From assembly GCA_937916515.1 (NCBI GenBank), contig CALFSX010000081.1, positions 1 to 45,018 on the forward strand: 45,018 nt of DNA, given 5' to 3'. The notes beneath the pieces are model-generated. The model was not told the origin of the DNA. It saw only the letters and a list, made by a program, of their open reading frames with translations, and made no database searches. The stretch is from an uncultured Planctomycetaceae bacterium. GTDB taxonomy: Bacteria > Planctomycetota > Planctomycetia > Planctomycetales > Planctomycetaceae. The stretch's first letter is position 1. Each line of letters opens with the position of its first letter. This document shows, in pieces, positions 31,302 to 41,135 of the stretch. Both the position numbers and the translations under genes were made by a program.

Positions 31302-34300
31302 TCAGGCTGCTCGGTTTTGCCGATCTTCGCGTGGTACAAAGTTGCCTTTTTCGTCAATCTCTTCAAACCGCACAACAAGGCGTTTGGAGATTCCGGACTC
31401 TTCCATTGTGACACCATAAAGTACGTCGGTCACCGCCATGGTTGGTTTGCGGTGAGTGATCATGATGAACTGTGTCTCCTGCTGGAAGTCTTTCAGCACT
31501 CCAACAAAGCGTCCGATATTGGCATCGTCCAAAGCAGCATCCACTTCGTCCAGAATACAGAATGGACTTGGTCGGCTTTTGAAAATTGACAGCAGCAAGG
31601 CGACCGCTGTCATTGTTTTTTCCCCACCGCTAAGAAGCGAGATACTGCGAAGTTCTTTGCCAGGCGGACGAGCCACTACATCGATCGCACATTCCAGGAC
31701 GTCTTCCGGATCTTCCAGAATCACGTCTGCTTCTCCGCCACCAAACAAGCGACGGAAGAGTTCTCGGAAGTGACCTCGAATGCATTCAAACGATTCCTGG
31801 AACATGCGTCGGCTTTCAATGTTGATTTGCCGCACCATGTCTCGCAACGTGTCGCGAGCTGCTTCCAGGTCTGTTAGTTGTGAATGCAGACGTTCAAAAC
31901 GTGTTTCCAGTTCCGTCAGGTTGTCCAGGCTTTCTGTGCCAACGTTGCCAATCTTTTTCAGCTGGCGACGCAGCTTTCCAACTCGTTCTTCAATGGTGTT
32001 TCGCAATTCGTCGTAGCGAGCGTCATCGCGAAGAATCTGCTGCGTTTGCGGATCATCAACCGTGATTTCGATCGGGTCTTCAAACGACACATGGCCTTCT
32101 TTTTCAATTTCGATGCCGCTGTTTTCTGCATTCAGAGCGTCCACCAGCCAGTCTGATTCTTCATCAGAATCATTGTCTGCGGATGAGCTGTTTCCAGAAT
32201 AGCCGCCGCTTTCGGCCTGAGCCTGTTCGGTCAAAAAAGCGGCGATGGCAGAACGTCCGGCTTCTGCCGCATCTTCTACAGAAATTTGAAACTCGTCCTG
32301 AATACGTTCTGCTGACGTTTCCAGTTGGTGATCGATACTGTTGATTTTCAGTTCGATTTCATGGTACTGAGTTTCGTGCTTGCGACAGATTTCGCGAGCC
32401 TGTTGTTCCGCGGTCGTCGCTTCCTGTCGGCGAGCACGCAGTAGTTTGCGAGCCGCACTGCGTCGATTGATTTCGGTTGTCAGTTGGTCGTCGTAAACCT
32501 GCAGTTCCCAGATTTCCGCCGCAACGTTAAGCCGGCCCAGATTAAGTTCCGCCAGTCGTTCCGTTCCCAATTGGTAGCGGCGCGTGGCTTCCTGTTGCTG
32601 CAGCCGACGTTGTTGCAGGTCGTCTGTTAAGCGTTGAATCGCGTCCTGAATTCCCAGCAGGCGTTCTTCTGTTCTGGTGAGTTCCAGGTTGGATTCTGTG
32701 CGTTGAGACTCCAGAATGTCAATCTGCTGGCGGTCTGCCATCAATGAGTGTTCGGCATCAGAAATCAGCGATTGCAGTTCTGTTTTTTCTTCTTCAGCAG
32801 CTTCCAGCGCAGCGTTACCTTCTGCGACTTCGGAGCGTAGCTGTTCGATGTTTTCACTAAGAGTCGTCAATTGTTCAACAAGTTTTTGCTCGTTGCGTTC
32901 GCTGGTGGTGAAGGACCTTTGAATTTCCAGATACTGCTGCTGTTCCGCTCGAAGTTCAGCGGCACATTGTTCAACGGTATCTCGCCCGGACTCAAGTTCA
33001 CTATCCGCCGCTTCGATTGACTGAATGAGCATTTTAAGGTTGATCTCGCGTTCTGAGATCAGGTGTTCAGCTCGGTGTAATTCGTTTTTAAGGCGACGCA
33101 GTTCGCTTTTGCGAGATACAACGGCAGATTCACTGCGGACTGTACCGGCAAACAGCGTTCCGTCTTTTTCGACCAGTTCGCCCTGAAGTGTCACAAACCG
33201 AAAGTTGTCGCCATGTTCCTTTTGCAGTCGTATGCCATCGTTAAGTGACTGAACAACCCACGTATCAGCCAGCAATTGTGCGGCAAGCGATGGAAGATGT
33301 CGAGGCGATCGGGCCAGGCTGTCAGCACGTCCGACGACGCCGCGTTCTCCATGCAGGCTGCGGATGGCCGTGTGAGACGACGAAAATACAGCTCGCGCAG
33401 GCGGAATTTCGCCGGTTTCATCAACCCATGTGACCTTCAAGTCAGGCAGGAATTCGTCGCTGACTGACGAGGAAAATTCTCCCCCCAACCAGTCATCGCC
33501 GAACATGCCAAGACCCAGGTCGCCAGACCAACCCTTGCGTTTGGGGGCCAGATCCTGACTTGTGGGGCGTGAATCTTCTTCGTGCTGTTCGGTTGCAGTC
33601 CTGGGACGTCGAGCGATAAACGGTTCGGCGCCTTCAAGTGAGACGAAACCGACTCGGCCAGTAATCTGGCATCGCCCTGTGTTCATATAATCAACCAGCG
33701 GCTGCAGCCGATCGATCACCAGCATTTGAGCTCGCCCGGACAGCGCGACTTCCAGCAGCGCGGCGTTGTCCATGTCTACGTCCAACAGATCGGCAACGCT
33801 TCCCCGAATCAGATTCCACGGTTCGGAGACGCCTTCTTCTGCGCGACGCAGAATTTCGCGTGCTCCAATGCCGAAGCCTTCCTGACGATCTTCCAGATCT
33901 TCCAGTACGGTTTTTCGCGCAACTGCGGCACTGCGTTGTTCTCGCAGGTCAGCCAGTGTTTCGCGAGACTCTGTTTGTTCGTTGAGTAGTCCTTCTCGTT
34001 CTCCGATCAGTCTGTCTGCGGCTTCTTCGGCGCTGCCAACTTTTTGCGTCGCTTGTTCAACGACCGCTTGCTGCGCGATCAGCTTTTCCTGAAGTACGGC
34101 GATTTCTTCAACCAGTGTGTTGCGAGCATCCAGTAATTCAGCATGACGTTGTTGCAGAGTTTGAAACTTGTGTCTCAAACCGCCAAGGTGTGTTGCGAGT
34201 TCCGAATTGGCCTGGCTGCGTTCAATCAGATTCTGGCGATTTACCTGAATGGCGGACTGCGCTGTATCAAGCGACGCATGCAGCTCTTTCAGCTGTAAGA

Positions 34301-35387
34301 CGACGTTTTTCTGTTCCGCCTGTCGTTCGTCAAATCGCTTTTGTTCCAGATTAAGAACATTGGACAGATGCTTGTCTTCACGCTCAGCTTCTGTCACTCG
34401 GCCATCCATGACGGACTGCTGACGCTGAAGTCGTTGACCTTCTGAACGCAGTTCTGATTCGCGAGCCGAATGGTGGCGCAGCGTGGTTGCCTGGCTGGCG
34501 ATCTGGCTGCGAAGTTCGGCGCGACTGTGTTCGACTTCTCGCAACTCGTCATCGACAGCAGACAAGGCCTGGTCAGCTTCGGCCAGTTGTTGTTCGGCCT
34601 GCTGGCGGTGATTCTGCATCTGCAGCAAAGTTTCGGAGGCTTCGTTTTTCTGTTTATTCAGGCGTTCTCGCACCATGGACTGTCGACGAAAATCGTCAGC
34701 CACCATTCCCACCCAGAACGTTTCCAGTTCCGTGGAGACTTTGCGAAATTTGGTGGCTCGTTTTGCCTGTCCGCGAATGCTGCTGACCTGTGATTCGACT
34801 TCCTTAACGATGTCTGTCAGTCGCAGCAGGTTTTGTTCGACACGTTCCAGCCGTCGTTCTGCTTCGACGCGCCGCTGCTTGAATCGACTGATGCCCGCTG
34901 CTTCTTCAAAGATCAGTCGGCGGTTGGCTGCGTTGGACTGCAGAATCTGGTCAACTCGCCCCTGTTCGATAATACAATAGGAAGCAGCACCAGCCCCGGT
35001 TCCCATCAGTAGTTCGCGAACATCCTTCAGTCGCGCGGTATTGCGATTGATAAGATATTCTGAGTCGCCGGATTTCCATAAGCGGCGTCCCACGGAGACT
35101 TCGTCGTGGTCCAGTGGAAGGAAGCGTGAAGTGTTGTCGAACGTCAGGCTGGCTTCTGCAAACTGAGCTCCGCCGCGGCTGGTTGAGCCGTTGAAGATGA
35201 CGTCTGTCATCTCTTTGCCACGCAGGCTTTTCGCGCTTTGGTCGCCCAAAAGCCACTTGATTGAGTCCACGACGTTGCTCTTGCCGCTACCGTTCGGTCC
35301 CACGACACCAGTGATGCCTTCGTGGAATTCAAAAACGGTTCTGTCGGCAAAACTCTTGAAGCCGAAGAGTTCGAGCGCCTTGAGCAT
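31302..35387 (-). CDS. smc: Chromosome segregation ATPase SMC
   Basis: A 1361-aa SMC protein, longer than the usual 1150-1200. Walker [10 protein letters not shown] is at 30-38, the ABC signature LSGGEK at 1252-1257, and Walker [13 protein letters not shown] with Asp1280/Glu1281. Two long coiled coils flank a hinge at about 520-748. The extra length comes from a low-complexity insert inside the hinge (about 590-650, rich in Ser/Arg/Asp) and from an acidic linker in the second coiled coil (about 1060-1115, rich in Asp/Glu/Ser). SMC dimers hold and segregate chromosomes with ScpA/ScpB, which are not in the window. A FlgI-like lipoprotein gene lies 81 bp upstream on the same strand. Confidence 0.96.
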
Positions 35388-35428
35388 TGTTGAAAGTGGG
35401 TTTCTGGGTTAGCGACGAAAGAGTAAGC

Positions 35429-35452
35429 GGGCGAGCAGTTAGTTGTTCGCCC
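35429..35452 (-). promoter_or_regulatory. Hairpin between the FlgI-like gene and smc
   Basis: GGGCGAGCA (35429-35437) and TGTTCGCCC (35444-35452) form a 9-bp stem with one mismatch on the minus strand (a G-U on the plus), in the 81-bp gap of a probable two-gene unit. Only a weak T-rich stretch follows. It may tune smc expression or be a weak terminator. Confidence 0.35.
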
Positions 35453-35468
35453 CGATCAATGGAACTGT

Positions 35469-37622
35469 CTATTCCTGTTTTTGAAATGGCGAAAACACGG
35501 CTCGACGAATCCGACTGCCCAGTGGTTCCTGGAACTCAGATTTTTCGAGCTTGAACTCGGCCTCTTCCACACCGGCGTCATCTGCTGCGGCCGCTTCTTC
35601 AGAAAGGTCCATTTCATCGATCTCCAGCAGAGCTGTTTTCGCAGCCGATGCTCTGTCTGGATCAATCATGTCATCAGCGTCCTCCAGTGACGCACCTTCA
35701 TCCAAATCAGCGGCTGATTGTGTATCGCTGGAATCAGCATCCTCGCCTGCAGCGAACATACGGGACAGGGCTGATGAATCCTGTCGTGGATCGACTTTGT
35801 CTTCTTCTTCGATACGATCGAACAAACCAGGCGTCAGCGATGGAGTTCCCAGTTTAGCCTTTTGTTCTCTATCACTCTCGTCGAATGCTCGCGTGAAGAC
35901 TCGCCCAGCCTGAGGCAACCGGTCAATTCCCAATTCGCCTTTCAGGTTATGTTGCGAATCTGCTTCCAGAAGCATTTGTACAACGTCTGGATAGGTGGCA
36001 CCCATTTGAGCAACCGCTTGAATGATCTCAATCAGGTTTGTTGAAACCACGTGTCTTTTAGGTTCTTGGTCAAGTTCGTACTTTGTAACAGTAACCGTGT
36101 TTTCACCAGCGTCGCCTTTCACTGCAATTCGATTGCCGACGTACAGTGTGGCTGGAAGTCGAAGTTCCTGCTGAATACCAAAGACAACAACTTCGGGAGC
36201 TCGATAGCGAACCACATGCACTGCCGGTGGGCCTGTGGAATCGATCGCATGCAGGACAAACTGATTCGCAAAGGTCTGCGTTCCCAGATAGGGATCGTTG
36301 GCGTTGTTTTCTTTCAGTGCACGCACGGCACCGTATCGAGTTTCCAACGCATCGTCTGACAGCAATTCTCGCAGCGCGACGACGGCGTCGGCTTCAGTGA
36401 CAACTGATAGTGCGGCCAGTGCATAAACTCGGAACGCTGCCTCGGTTTCGGCGGCTTCCTTCAACACTTCCACGCCGCTGCCGTCTTCCAGGTAAGCCAG
36501 AGCCTGAGCCGCATGGAATCGCACTTCAAGACTTGGCGACTGCAAAGCAGCTTTCAAAAACGGTATGGCGTCTCGGCCAATTGCTTCCAGCTGCAAAGAT
36601 GAGTTGGCTGCTTTTTCCGGGTCCTGAATGTCGGTCGCCAGCTTTTCCATTCGCATGCGGCGAGCGACATCTGTTTCTCTTAACGCGATGCTGCGAATCA
36701 TCTGTTGATATCGCGGGAAGTTGTTTCGATAAAGCGGATGCACCATGAGTTCCAGCATCAGGTCGGTCTTGGCTTCGGCCATCGGAACTCGCTGGCCGAA
36801 ACGATTGTAATGGTGCAGGCGATTGGAAATGGCGTTTTCAATTCGCTTGGATGTTTTCAAGCCTCGATACTCGTTGCGCAGAACAACTTCCAGGTTTCGC
36901 TCTGTATTGGAGATCGCCCCACCAGGAATCGACCCGCGTCGCAACATGGCGGCATTGTCTTTTGTATAGCTGCCGTCTCCCAAAGCGGTCAGGATCGCTC
37001 CGTAGGCTACAGCGTATTCGTGCCCTTTGACGTTTCCTCGCCCGGCAATTGTCTGTTCTTCGGAAAGCCGTGTTTCCAGCAGCCATCCGCCTTTCAGGCT
37101 GGTTGCTTCACTGTTGGGCGGCAACATAACGCGAACGTCGAACTTCTGTTTGTCACGAACCATTGCCGGAAGATAGGCGGTGATCATTACCAGGGCCGTG
37201 TTTCGTGACGCCAGAATCGCTCCAGGGTTGGGAATCTTGCGGCGAGTCATTTCGTCAAGCAGCTCTTTTCGCAGATGCGACGGTGGTGGATCGCCGCCAG
37301 TGCCATCCAAACCGGTTACCAGGCCTACTCCACGAAGAGCAATGACGTTGTTGCCTGTCACGCTGATGTAGTCACGCAGCAACGGAGTTTCCAGACGCGT
37401 GTCGAATTCGTTGTCTTCTTCTTTCACGATGTCGATCGATTTGTCTCGACTCATCATGCTGGTCAGCTTTGAGCCGAAGCTGTTTTCTCCCGTCAGGTTC
37501 AGCAAGCTGCTGGCGCAGCCTGAAGGTGTCATCAGAATTCCAGCCAGCAGCAGTCGAATTGTTTTCGACCACCGGAAAGAGACTGTCTGCAGAGCGGATT
37601 GATTTTCCATCGCATTCGCCAT
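35469..37622 (-). CDS. FlgI-like lipoprotein with inserted HEAT repeats
   Basis: A 717-aa protein. ATG 37622 is chosen so that a lipoprotein-type signal leads (Cys36 after PSG; residue -3 is Pro, atypical); a start four codons later is also possible. Near 98-111 is GVGLVTGLDGTGGD, like the FlgI signature G-x-GLVxGLxGTGD, and near 155-190 FDVRVMLPPNSEATSLKGGWLLETRL, also FlgI-like. The C-terminal half has STNLIEIIQAVAQMGATYPD near 527-546, matching the end of FlgI (DLVxALxxLGxxPxD). Between these halves lie about 110 residues of HEAT repeats (about 327-440). An acidic Asp/Glu/Ala-rich tail follows. FlgI forms the flagellar P-ring; no other flagellar gene is nearby, so the role is probably another periplasmic ring or scaffold. 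Confidence 0.78.
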   Translation of the reverse strand: MANAMENQSALQTVSFRWSKTIRLLLAGILMTPSGCASSLLNLTGENSFGSKLTSMMSRDKSIDIVKEEDNEFDTRLETPLLRDYISVTGNNVIALRGVGLVTGLDGTGGDPPPSHLRKELLDEMTRRKIPNPGAILASRNTALVMITAYLPAMVRDKQKFDVRVMLPPNSEATSLKGGWLLETRLSEEQTIAGRGNVKGHEYAVAYGAILTALGDGSYTKDNAAMLRRGSIPGGAISNTERNLEVVLRNEYRGLKTSKRIENAISNRLHHYNRFGQRVPMAEAKTDLMLELMVHPLYRNNFPRYQQMIRSIALRETDVARRMRMEKLATDIQDPEKAANSSLQLEAIGRDAIPFLKAALQSPSLEVRFHAAQALAYLEDGSGVEVLKEAAETEAAFRVYALAALSVVTEADAVVALRELLSDDALETRYGAVRALKENNANDPYLGTQTFANQFVLHAIDSTGPPAVHVVRYRAPEVVVFGIQQELRLPATLYVGNRIAVKGDAGENTVTVTKYELDQEPKRHVVSTNLIEIIQAVAQMGATYPDVVQMLLEADSQHNLKGELGIDRLPQAGRVFTRAFDESDREQKAKLGTPSLTPGLFDRIEEEDKVDPRQDSSALSRMFAAGEDADSSDTQSAADLDEGASLEDADDMIDPDRASAAKTALLEIDEMDLSEEAAAADDAGVEEAEFKLEKSEFQEPLGSRIRRAVFSPFQKQE

Positions 37623-38145
37623 CCGACTCACCAAAACCAGGTTTCGTTTCGCAGGTTCAGAGCTAAAAGGGCTGATGAACACACACTGTTTTGAAACCGG
37701 AGCAGTGAAAACAGAACTGAGAGAAAAGAAGGGCATCGATCGCCGGAAAAGGCGTTCGATGATGTATTGAGAGCAGATTTGGGGAGGTGCTGTACTTGTT
37801 TTCAGACGTCTGCCAGCAGGTTCGTTTCCACTTGAAAGTTGATTCCTGTCGTGATGAGTGCACGTCAGAATCGTTGTGAGTTCATTTCAAATGGGTTGTG
37901 AGATGCCGCAGTAAGAGGATTCGTCAGAGAACCTTCTATAAACGATACGTTTGAGTCCAAAACACAACAATACGGTTCCGTGCCAGTTCTGGACTCCTGG
38001 CGTATTGTCCTGATGCAGACCTGTTTGGATCGGCAAATCATGCAATAGCGAGCAATGAATCGGCAACGTTGCGAGTTGCGGATGTGCGATTGAAAACCGG
38101 TCGTCTGTGCCGGAAGCAGCTGGGTTCAGCAGGAATTGCCGATAG
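37623..38145. other. Intergenic region upstream of the FlgI-like gene
   Basis: About 520 bp between two minus-strand genes. It holds the terminator-like hairpin at 37729-37761 and presumably the promoter of the FlgI-like gene. Short ORFs here lack support. Confidence 0.4.
37729..37761 (-). terminator. Terminator-like hairpin downstream of the propeller pair
   Basis: CATCGATCGCC (37734-37744) and GGCGTTCGATG (37751-37761) form an 11-bp stem with one mismatch and a 6-nt loop. On the minus strand it is followed by CCCTTCTTTTCTCTC. It lies about 385 bases after the propeller gene's stop. Confidence 0.5.
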
Positions 38146-39120
38146 CTATTTTTTTGCTGGCTGGCTGACGTAAAGCAGTAGCTTTCCGTCTCGGCTGACA
38201 TCGGCTTCTCCGTTACGTCTGCCCTGAAATTGCCCTTCTATTTCCACAGGTGGAATCTGCGATTCGCCGTCACCGTCGGTTGAGTCTTGAGCGGCTGCTA
38301 TGCGAAACAGTTGTGGGCATTTTTGTGACTTTGACCAGATGCTGGTGACAATGCCTTCATTGTTAAGCCACGTGAAGTCAGCAGGAAATGATTCTTTTTG
38401 AAAATGCTCAACGATCGCTGGTTTGGCTCCAACTTTGACGGAACAGACATGAGACCCCTGCCCTTTGCCGGTGCCCTTGAAGCAGATTCGCTGACTGTCC
38501 GGTGACCAGGCGAAGTTCCAATAAAACGAACTGTAACCACTGCTGATATCATTGAAGACGTATCGGAACTCATCTTCCACCAGGTTGAAAATGACAAAGT
38601 CCGGACCGGCATTGCTGCTTCGACTGTAGGCAATCATCCGGCCATTGGGAGACCAGGTTGCAGACCATCCCTGTTGGTCGATGAGTCGTTGGTTCTGCCC
38701 GTCGGCATTCATTAGCCAAACGCCTTGTTCTGGCGAATATTTGCTGAAAGCGAGCCGAGATCCTCTGGGCGACCACGATGGCATGGCTCCGGGGCCAAGG
38801 TCTTTCAAGTCGCTGCCGTCCATGTTACAGGTAAAGATGTGAGCCGACGACGATGCTGATCCGGGCGACACTCCATCAAACGCAATCGTTTTTCCATCGG
38901 GCGACAGCGAAGGAGATCCGGCGGTGGAAAAATCTTCGAGCACGAACAGTCTTCGTGAGATGCTGGTTTCCAAATCCAGCATGCACATCCATAACTTCTC
39001 TGCATGGTCGGTCGGTACGGCTGAACGATCGACTTCCTGAGCGGCGCAGGGAAAACCCATGATCACCAGGATCATTATGGAGACGGACTGCTTCACCGAA
39101 GGAACGTATCGAAATTTCAT
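38146..39120 (-). CDS. Exported PD40/TolB-like beta-propeller protein
   Basis: A 324-aa protein with a signal peptide (residues 1-27, ending CAAQ). It consists of six-bladed PD40/WD40-like repeats, seen as SPDGKTIAFDG, PSWSPRGSRLAFS, ATWSPNGRMIAYS, FAWSPDSQRICF and a final SRDGKLLLYVS. Its ATG overlaps the TGA of the upstream gene (ATGA), so translation is coupled. It is a shorter paralogue of the C-terminal propeller of that gene: blades line up throughout, including MPSWSP, YSPE-GVW and QGRRN/QERRN. PD40 propellers in the periplasm bind peptides or proteins; the partner is unknown. No catalytic motif is seen. Confidence 0.85.
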   Translation of the reverse strand: MKFRYVPSVKQSVSIMILVIMGFPCAAQEVDRSAVPTDHAEKLWMCMLDLETSISRRLFVLEDFSTAGSPSLSPDGKTIAFDGVSPGSASSSAHIFTCNMDGSDLKDLGPGAMPSWSPRGSRLAFSKYSPEQGVWLMNADGQNQRLIDQQGWSATWSPNGRMIAYSRSSNAGPDFVIFNLVEDEFRYVFNDISSGYSSFYWNFAWSPDSQRICFKGTGKGQGSHVCSVKVGAKPAIVEHFQKESFPADFTWLNNEGIVTSIWSKSQKCPQLFRIAAAQDSTDGDGESQIPPVEIEGQFQGRRNGEADVSRDGKLLLYVSQPAKK

Positions 39121-41135
39121 TTTGGCGGCTTGCTGACGTAAATCAATGTGTTGCCATCACTCGCCCAGCTGGCGTCGCTGTTTCGGCGTTCTTGCATCTG
39201 CCCTTCTATTAACGTGGCAGTTGAACTGTTGGTCGTATCGAGTTGATAGAGTTGTTCGGGAGACGCCTGGCTGTTTTTCCTGGCGAAAGTGATTGTGTTG
39301 GAATTGGGCTTCCATGAAATTTCGGACGTGATTGAATTGGGTTCGCTAAGCACCTGCTTCGCAGCCTGCTTTCCGAAAACGGAGATCACGCTGACTGTAT
39401 GTTCAGAACTGAAGGCCAGTTGCTGGCTGTCTTTGTTCCATGCAAACCTGATCGGTGCAGATCCGCCGTTTGGCGCCAGGAAAAAAAAACGATCCTCAAC
39501 CAGGGCGTAAACTGCGATGTTACGATTGTCGGAAGTCGCTTTCGAATACGCGATGTAAAGTCCATCGGGTGACCACTGTGCTGCCCAGCCGTCGCTGTCC
39601 ACAATTTGAGCTTCTGTCCCGTCGACTCGAAGAATCCATACACCTTTCTCTGGTGAATACCTGCTGCAAACCATACGTTTACCTTCAGGAGACCACGAAG
39701 GCATGGTTCCGCGTCCCAGGGTTCGCACGTTCAGTTTATCCAGCGACACGACATAGATTTTTTTGTCCGACGTCATCGCTTCACCAGGAAACGTGGCATC
39801 AAAGGCGAGCATTTTTCCGTCGGCAGATAGCTGCGGCGAGCCCACGTTTTGGCAGTCTTTCAGTGCGAACAGGATTTTCGACGTGTTTGTGCGAGTATCA
39901 AGACTGCAAATCCAGATCTTGTCCCGAATCTTTGATGGGGCGTCAATTGTTTGTGGATCGACGATTTCCGGCAGTCGAAGAGTGGTGCCTGCGGAAACCT
40001 GCGGGGCTATTGTGGTTGAGGGGCCATCCATTGTGGATATTGCCCGGTATCGTCGTTCGTAGGCATCAGCCTTTTCGTCGCCCAGAATTTTTCGAGCTGC
40101 ATCGTTAAGTTGGCGGCTGTAGAGTTCTCTGGCAACAGTGTCCGACTTATTGCTGTGCATAGCATCAACGGATTGCGAACTGCCTCCAGCGGAGGATTGC
40201 AAGTAAAGCTTCAGCAACGCGATCGCCTGCTCAGTGTCTCCCACGGCAAATTGACTTCGAGCTGCTGCCAGCAATACGGCTCGCGTTGGAGCGTCCGCCA
40301 GCTTCTCACGTATCACGCCTGTATCCGACTTTGCCAACGCCAGCCCGGAGACTCGCAATAAGGCGGCGGCCAACTGAGGATTACGTCGATCCTGATGTAC
40401 GGCCATGCCCACGTTCGCCATCAACTCAGCCACGGGACGCTTTAGGCCAGCAGTAGCCGATGCAAGGATCGTGGCGATTGGCTGTTCAAGGCTGGATGAG
40501 TCCTGTCCTTCTGCCCCCTGTCGTTCCAGAGCGCACAGGACCAACAGCAGGCTTGCTTCCGGCGAATCCGTCGGGAAGCGTTCTGCCAGCAGTGCTTCAA
40601 GCTCCTGCAATTGGTTGGCCCTTGCCGCCCATTTCACAAGTTCCTTAGCCACGCTGTGCACCTCAGGAATGCGATCCGGCTGCAGTGCATTCACCTTTGC
40701 GGGCGAATTGTAAAACACAATTTCATAGGGTTGTTGCGACGGCAGCACAATGTCTCGCAACGCGGAATAGGCAGCAGTCGCCGAAGCACGTTCTTCCCAA
40801 TATTTTGAAAGCCGAAAAATCAGATTCGGAATTCGTAGGCGAAGTTTGTCAGCCGCCAGCATTGGTATCGGCGACATCGTGTTAACTCGAGCACCTGAAT
40901 GAATCACCTGCCCTTCATTCTTGTCGGTCGATACCGTCGGCGTACCATGCATGAGGGCTCGAGTAACCGCTTGCAGCGACAGTTCCGGCATGTCATGATG
41001 AACTGCGAGCTCAGCGATATCGAGAGCTCGGTTCGCCTGTTCCACGGTTGGTGGAGCCGCCCATCCGCAACTTGCGAAGCACATCAATGCAGCAAGGAAC
41101 AGGGTTGGGGTTGTTACGACAGTGAACTTGTTCAT
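39117..41135 (-). CDS. Exported helical-repeat plus PD40 propeller protein
   Basis: A 672-aa protein with a signal peptide (residues 1-26, ending GWAA). Residues about 30-370 are helical with TPR-like alternation (ANRALDIAELAVHHDMPELSLQ...), then a PD40/TolB-like propeller covers about 400-672 (SADGKMLAFDA, PSWSPEGKRMVCS, AQWSPDGLYIAYS). The start codon ATG 41135 lacks a clear Shine-Dalgarno sequence. Its stop overlaps the start of the 324-aa gene that repeats only the propeller, a tandem duplication. A helical scaffold plus a peptide-binding propeller suggests a periplasmic assembly or sensing protein; that is inference. Confidence 0.85.
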   Translation of the reverse strand: MNKFTVVTTPTLFLAALMCFASCGWAAPPTVEQANRALDIAELAVHHDMPELSLQAVTRALMHGTPTVSTDKNEGQVIHSGARVNTMSPIPMLAADKLRLRIPNLIFRLSKYWEERASATAAYSALRDIVLPSQQPYEIVFYNSPAKVNALQPDRIPEVHSVAKELVKWAARANQLQELEALLAERFPTDSPEASLLLVLCALERQGAEGQDSSSLEQPIATILASATAGLKRPVAELMANVGMAVHQDRRNPQLAAALLRVSGLALAKSDTGVIREKLADAPTRAVLLAAARSQFAVGDTEQAIALLKLYLQSSAGGSSQSVDAMHSNKSDTVARELYSRQLNDAARKILGDEKADAYERRYRAISTMDGPSTTIAPQVSAGTTLRLPEIVDPQTIDAPSKIRDKIWICSLDTRTNTSKILFALKDCQNVGSPQLSADGKMLAFDATFPGEAMTSDKKIYVVSLDKLNVRTLGRGTMPSWSPEGKRMVCSRYSPEKGVWILRVDGTEAQIVDSDGWAAQWSPDGLYIAYSKATSDNRNIAVYALVEDRFFFLAPNGGSAPIRFAWNKDSQQLAFSSEHTVSVISVFGKQAAKQVLSEPNSITSEISWKPNSNTITFARKNSQASPEQLYQLDTTNSSTATLIEGQMQERRNSDASWASDGNTLIYVSKPPK

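Follow-up and report, generated by a model that had tools for sequence, protein, structure and literature searches.

A FlgI-like predicted lipoprotein with an internal HEAT-repeat block, encoded beside smc in Planctomycetia

What is a protein that resembles FlgI, the subunit of the flagellar P ring, doing beside smc and away from any flagellar gene cluster? The question arose at one gene in the window, by which we mean the whole 45,018-nucleotide stretch of contig CALFSX010000081.1 from an uncultured Planctomycetaceae bacterium. We approached it through the architecture and predicted fold of the gene product, its distribution with respect to flagellar genes, and its linkage to smc.

The gene product and its predicted fold

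The gene (35469..37736, minus strand, as for every window feature below) was called as an ORF of 755 aa from its first ATG; an alternative start at an internal ATG (37622, residue 39), which is the end coordinate of an earlier note made on this DNA from its letters, would give 717 aa. That note had predicted a lipoprotein, and the product does carry a lipobox, TPSGC, in which Cys74 (37515..37517; MTPSG/CAS, the Cys following the slash) comes after a hydrophobic signal. Among the named homologues, the best 80 of 175 found, 69 pass a relaxed lipobox rule and 52 a strict pattern to which the window protein does not conform. All 22 sequences of alignment A3 have Cys at the aligned position, and some family members seemingly have an ordinary signal peptide in place of the lipobox.

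Downstream of the signal, aa 120–352 (36681..37379) correspond by Pfam, AlphaFold2 and Foldseek to the outer-ring (OR) and upper inner-ring (IRU) domains of FlgI, as these and the lower inner-ring domain (IRL) are defined in the part of Yamaguchi et al. available to us (PMC8298488). Pfam FlgI (PF02119) matches aa 120–355 over profile positions 2–228 of 343 (E=2.5e-24, 86.3 bits, cut-off 25.3), and the motifs from which a P-ring signature had been read, GVGLVTGLDGTGGD, SLKGGWLLET and NLIEIIQAVAQMGATYPD, are all present. The score against the flagellar FlgI model PRK05303 of NCBIfam, 82.9 bits, is below the curated cut-off of 300, as is expected of a FlgI paralogue. The FlgI region is then interrupted at aa 353–480 (36297..36680) by a HEAT-repeat insert, which matches HEAT_2 (E=4.1e-9, best stretch aa 371–442) and is modeled as eight helices, or about four repeats, between aa 356 and 477. 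A search of each half of the protein with PF02119 had been proposed as a check, and by sequence only the N-terminal part gives a significant match. The C-terminal part, aa 481–606 (35919..36296), is weakly matched to profile positions 283–342 in a profile search of its own genome (E=0.137), has a second hhalign match over aa 565–604 to the end of canonical FlgI in a one-to-one comparison (E=0.022), and has no significant match in a PDB sequence search; it is collinear with the FlgI C-terminus and, in the model, is built of strands, two helices and a final strand that Foldseek places with IRL. The model supports a FlgI fold that is complete down to its C-terminal domain, with weak agreement at the sequence level for that domain. 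The last portion, aa 607–755 (35472..35918), comprises a post-FlgI segment and a low-confidence tail that is acidic as the note had said (34 D/E against 12 K/R in aa 641–755). Across 71 sequences the mean frequency of the commonest residue is 0.62 in the HEAT repeats, 0.56–0.60 in the FlgI parts and 0.15 in the acidic tail, indicating that the insert is as well conserved as the FlgI parts and the tail poorly so.

The AlphaFold2 model, computed from alignment A2 (the window protein and 70 of the 80 named homologues), reaches a pLDDT of at least 90 in 488 of its 755 residues, covering most of aa 120–640, and in the N-terminal part nearly all ten-residue blocks exceed 90, with one block at 64. 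A comparison with P-ring structures, which had been proposed as a check, gave flagellar FlgI chains as the top four Foldseek matches in the PDB (E=1.5e-13 to 3.3e-12, 496–505 columns each), the best being Salmonella FlgI (7bgl, 306 residues; E=1.5e-13 over 501 columns of the model); HEAT and alphaRep proteins matching the insert rank next, and a viral fold library gave no match at E<=0.001. Taken with the domains of PMC8298488 and hhalign, the model would place the HEAT block near the OR/IRL boundary. Superposition of the whole chain on Salmonella FlgI is poor (rmsd 18.8, with 18–19 across the matches; TM 0.39 by target), so the relative placement of the domains either differs from that in the assembled P ring or is modeled with uncertainty.

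Distribution, flagellar genes and FlgI relatives

A profile made from A3, which comprises 22 family members, was searched against 199 genomes of the phylum, 12 from the window's class and 187 from others. It found the family in 25 of the 199 at E<=2.4e-145, and the next-best match stands at E=1.7e-32, where canonical FlgI and fragments start. Full-length members are present in all 12 sampled class genomes and in 13 of the 187 others. The remaining 174 include three (G031, G075 and G093) that hold contig-broken fragments beside smc, and some of the other 171 carry a HEAT-less relative. Within the class, 376 of 397 genomes have the family at E<=1e-60, representing 183 of 185 genera; among genomes of at least 90% completeness and at most 5% contamination the count is 329 of 339, and among the matches listed there is one per class genome save in G510 and G548. 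The named relatives include records of Fuerstiella, Gimesia, Schlesneria, Thalassoglobus, Planctomicrobium, Thermogutta and Pirellulales, the two top-ranked being Fuerstiella (Planctomycetia) at 65% identity. By these searches the family is near-universal in the class, mostly as a single copy, and patchy beyond it.

The same genome as the window has a canonical flgI on another contig (C267, E=1.5e-111) with FlgH and ChapFlgA domains adjoining. Because an ordinary flgA-flgH-flgI locus is thus present, the window protein is a FlgI paralogue; the locus also answers in the affirmative whether the genome has a normal flgI, and places the window gene outside the flagellar cluster, as had been claimed. 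In a tree of FlgI domains built on 349 columns from 30 canonical sequences and 44 others, the incomplete or masked L063, L067, L068 and L069 having been left out, canonical FlgI forms one clade. Rooted there, 41 smc-type proteins form one group, of which 34 HEAT members are a subgroup and seven lack HEAT. The support values shown for the smc-type and HEAT splits are 0.86–0.99, and re-rooting can shift values between branches; with midpoint rooting the HEAT-less smc-type proteins, whose branches are long, fall outside everything. A single origin of the HEAT family and its HEAT-less smc neighbours is likely on this comparison, though dependent on the root. Beside canonical FlgI branch fusion paralogues of ChapFlgA and FlgI from genus g3 (L035, L037, L070), a third FlgI-type gene in that genus that lies away from smc; in L037 and L070 FlgI is preceded by a segment that resembles ChapFlgA (E of 0.0003 and 0.0017, short of the Pfam cut-off), so that chaperone and ring protein are apparently fused.

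Many family carriers do have flagellar genes, and 113 of the 199 phylum genomes have an FlhA match at E<=1e-20. An smc-type FlgI-like protein also occurs in eight genomes (G001, G022, G033, G047, G055, G086, G127 and G136) that have no match to FlhA at that threshold, to FlgH or to the rod/hook domain Flg_bbr_C; G029 was left out of this count for its rod/hook matches. Two of the eight have the full HEAT family: G127, which is a single contig and 99% complete, and G055, which is 84% complete. The proteins of the other six are more divergent, scoring close to the FlgI cut-off or moderately above it, and five of them lie beside smc (that of G086 does not). Pfam detects no HEAT repeat in those of G001, G022 and G033 or in L060, and the proteins of G047, G086 and G136 group with L060 and the G022 protein in the tree. 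In a domain search ChapFlgA was absent from G127, G055, G001, G047 and G136, and gave weak partial matches in G022, G033 and G086. The retention of the family in genomes lacking the three flagellar markers agrees with the repurposing that the note had suggested, and in some genomes the family is, as far as gene content indicates, independent of the flagellum. Elsewhere in the sample, an FlhA match in the one-contig genome G088 (G088:C1:618129-620070) is broken by many stop codons, while its canonical flgI match is stop-free.

Cell division in these bacteria provides a further context. At E<=1e-20, none of the phylum sample's 114 better genomes has an FtsZ match, and the rest of the sample gives three weak matches below the cut-off, so members of the phylum would divide by other means. 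A correlation between FtsZ loss and the family proved uninformative, FtsZ being missing throughout the phylum, and since most sampled genomes outside the class are without both, the protein is not needed for FtsZ-less life as such.

Linkage to smc

The placement of the gene just upstream of smc holds: smc (31302..35387, 1361 aa) follows after a gap of 81 nt (35388..35468), and we found no terminator-like or promoter-like site on the minus strand between 35200 and 38250. The arrangement recurs widely. In the 25 genomes with a full-length member the gene adjoins smc in 23, the exceptions being G111 and G167, in the latter of which the two genes lie far apart on one contig and both persist. In the named loci (best 80 of 175), smc is at most 3 kb downstream on the same strand in 71, with a median gap of 103 nt, and the nine without it are five contig ends and four loci with room for it (L102, L126, L127, L141). 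The smc N-terminus also follows on the expected strand in 37 of 40 further class regions, hand-picked for family spread and completeness from among the 376 and overlapping the named loci in part; one of the misses is a contig end of 381 bases. Around non-canonical FlgI-like matches we fetched 38 loci (L034–L071), and smc lies downstream on the same strand in 29, with a gap of 2.8 kb in L060; the other nine are the three ChapFlgA-FlgI fusions, three at or near contig ends (L067–L069) and three unlinked (L045, L051, L066). Over 28 pairs the gap between gene and smc has a median of 96 nt, one being 2.8 kb.

An all-against-all ORF comparison of the window and 103 loci (L034–L058 without L035 and L037; L073–L152) matched the gene-smc pair in about 90 other loci, and each of the remaining ORFs in the 13 neighbourhoods listed in at most 17. 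Upstream of the gene, two adjoining PD40/TolB-like beta-propeller ORFs (38146–41135) are each matched in one other locus only. Over 24 pairs, the protein distances of the gene product correlate strongly with those of SMC (Mantel r=0.93; 999 permutations reached 0.35 at most), which reflects shared descent and is no proof of contact. Throughout the class, and in certain lineages outside it, adjacency to smc is thus a conserved feature. A search for a distant form of the gene in 60 smc upstream regions, taken from genomes that had given no linked match, yielded one true case (L200), together with two weak matches (L171 and L203), neither directly upstream of smc. Ten long genes found upstream of smc were also scanned: five encode an ATP-cone, one an AAA domain and one a dehydrogenase, and the remaining three reach the cut-off of no family. 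The ATP-cone genes (L168, L182, L184, L193 and L207; families f23, f32, f6 and f57), some with an NRDD match, are a different recurring neighbour of smc in other families of the phylum.

SMC itself seems conventionally equipped. Of 24 genomes searched, all have ScpA and 23 have ScpB, and SMC therefore has its usual partners. ScpB gave two matches in each of the seven class genomes among them (G000, G024, G048, G087, G152, G121 and G167) and one in each of the 16 ScpB-positive genomes from elsewhere in the phylum. In Rhodopirellula baltica, SMC is RB6065 according to the part of PMC2754498 available to us.

Possible roles and comparison with known systems

The existence of a FlgI-HEAT-FlgI paralogue, its distribution and its linkage to smc are firm; its function has to be read from sequence and model. 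The explanation that we tentatively prefer is that an exported FlgI paralogue works outside the flagellum as part of an envelope ring or arc serving FtsZ-less division and segregation and tied to smc. The protein would be lipid-anchored, most likely in the outer membrane. Its OR part may touch peptidoglycan, as has been proposed for flagellar FlgI from similarity to OmpA-like domains (PMC8298488, in part), and by analogy of fold it could assemble into a ring or arc, as FlgI does in the 26-fold ring around the rod, with the HEAT solenoids perhaps offering a docking surface for a partner. Co-transcription with smc would then be kept because the structure serves the same cell-cycle step, that of segregation and division without FtsZ. 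Since SMC is cytoplasmic and the protein periplasmic, coupling would probably run through some further, membrane-spanning partner. Against this explanation stand the rarity of the family outside the class, the poor whole-chain superposition, the location of SMC in another compartment, the cases of lost adjacency and the members that seem to have an ordinary signal peptide. A stronger version, in which a P-ring protein became a core non-flagellar envelope ring coupled to SMC, for example by giving shape to the bud neck or division site or by acting as a gate there, seems to us unlikely. Rod contacts are no guide here. Lys63 and Lys95 are required for P-ring assembly in Salmonella (PMC8298488, in part), and each position is Lys in 8 of the 80 named homologues (best 80 of 175). 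The canonical FlgI of the window's genome lacks them too, as do about half of the 30 canonical sequences compared, so we dropped their loss as proof of non-flagellar use.

A possible, if somewhat doubtful, alternative is that the protein is an envelope housekeeping lipoprotein, peptidoglycan-binding for instance, which lies beside smc merely as the relic of a shared operon and its promoter. The common strand, the short median gap and, in the window, an intergenic stretch in which no terminator-like site was found are what this would predict, as are the separate compartments of the two products and the survival of both genes after the pair was split in G167. Yet the gap has stayed short across distant families while other neighbours were reshuffled, and a promoter alone would not hold a coding gene near-universal and mostly single-copy in a class. 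It is rather improbable that the protein instead forms the ring of the crateriform pits, which the available part of PMC5394234 describes as press-stud-like links of the outer and cytoplasmic membranes, calls enigmatic, and does not resolve into components. A lipid-anchored, P-ring-like annulus would suit such pits, and so would a gene near-universal in the class, but we found no proteomic or genetic link in the open-licence PMC literature, and the linkage to smc would be incidental and left unexplained. An accessory P-ring protein is very improbable: FlgI homology and the flagellar genes of many carriers speak for it, whereas the window's genome has canonical flgI as well, the full family occurs in G127 and G055 without FlhA, FlgH, the rod/hook domain or ChapFlgA, and the complete one-contig genome G127 contradicts a flagellar role. 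Condensin and cohesin include HEAT proteins, and HEAT repeats do adjoin smc here, but a cytoplasmic SMC-complex subunit, as a bacterial counterpart of those proteins (HAWK), is ruled out for practical purposes by the conserved export and lipobox signal, by FlgI domains that work in the periplasm and by the presence of ScpA and ScpB.

The protein bears on two open questions: by what means planctomycetes divide in the absence of FtsZ, and which components form the pits of their outer membrane. A lipoprotein of predicted FlgI fold, near-universal in the class and genetically coupled to smc, is a testable candidate for envelope machinery, and the family shows that a flagellar ring protein can live on outside the flagellum. 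The label 'flagellar P-ring protein' in automatic annotation would probably hide it. The signal of a Kuenenia protein so named exports PhoA in E. coli (PMC12758564, in part, where it is left unstated whether the protein is canonical). In the open-licence PMC literature no paper was found that brings 'FlgI' and 'HEAT repeat' together, and among the papers listed there was no report of a protein of FlgI-HEAT-FlgI type; the available parts of PMC10632474, PMC8567305, PMC5287468, PMC12758564, PMC2754498, PMC1586193, PMC12316311 and PMC12283558 do not describe one.

The closest known system is FlgI itself (PF02119; 7bgl, 7cbl, 7nvg, 8z5n), which the window protein resembles in fold, domain order and predicted export, both having the GxGLVxGLxGTG and SLxGG motifs and a C-terminal helical segment. 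It differs in adding a lipobox, a HEAT insert of about 130 aa near the OR/IRL boundary and a tail, in being encoded beside smc and outside the flagellar cluster, in mostly lacking the rod-contact lysines, and in the retention of the full family by two genomes without FlhA, FlgH and ChapFlgA. The g3 fusions are likewise additional planctomycete FlgI paralogues, but they have a chaperone-like N-terminal part, show no HEAT match (L037, L070) and lie away from smc, near canonical FlgI. With the secretin N3, MotY and OmpA-like domains that contact peptidoglycan, to which FlgI-OR is reported to be similar (PMC8298488, in part), the likeness is one of resemblance only. Compared with bacterial HEAT and PBS-lyase repeats (PF13646, PF03130), the insert is predicted to be an ordinary HEAT solenoid, but one embedded in a FlgI protein.
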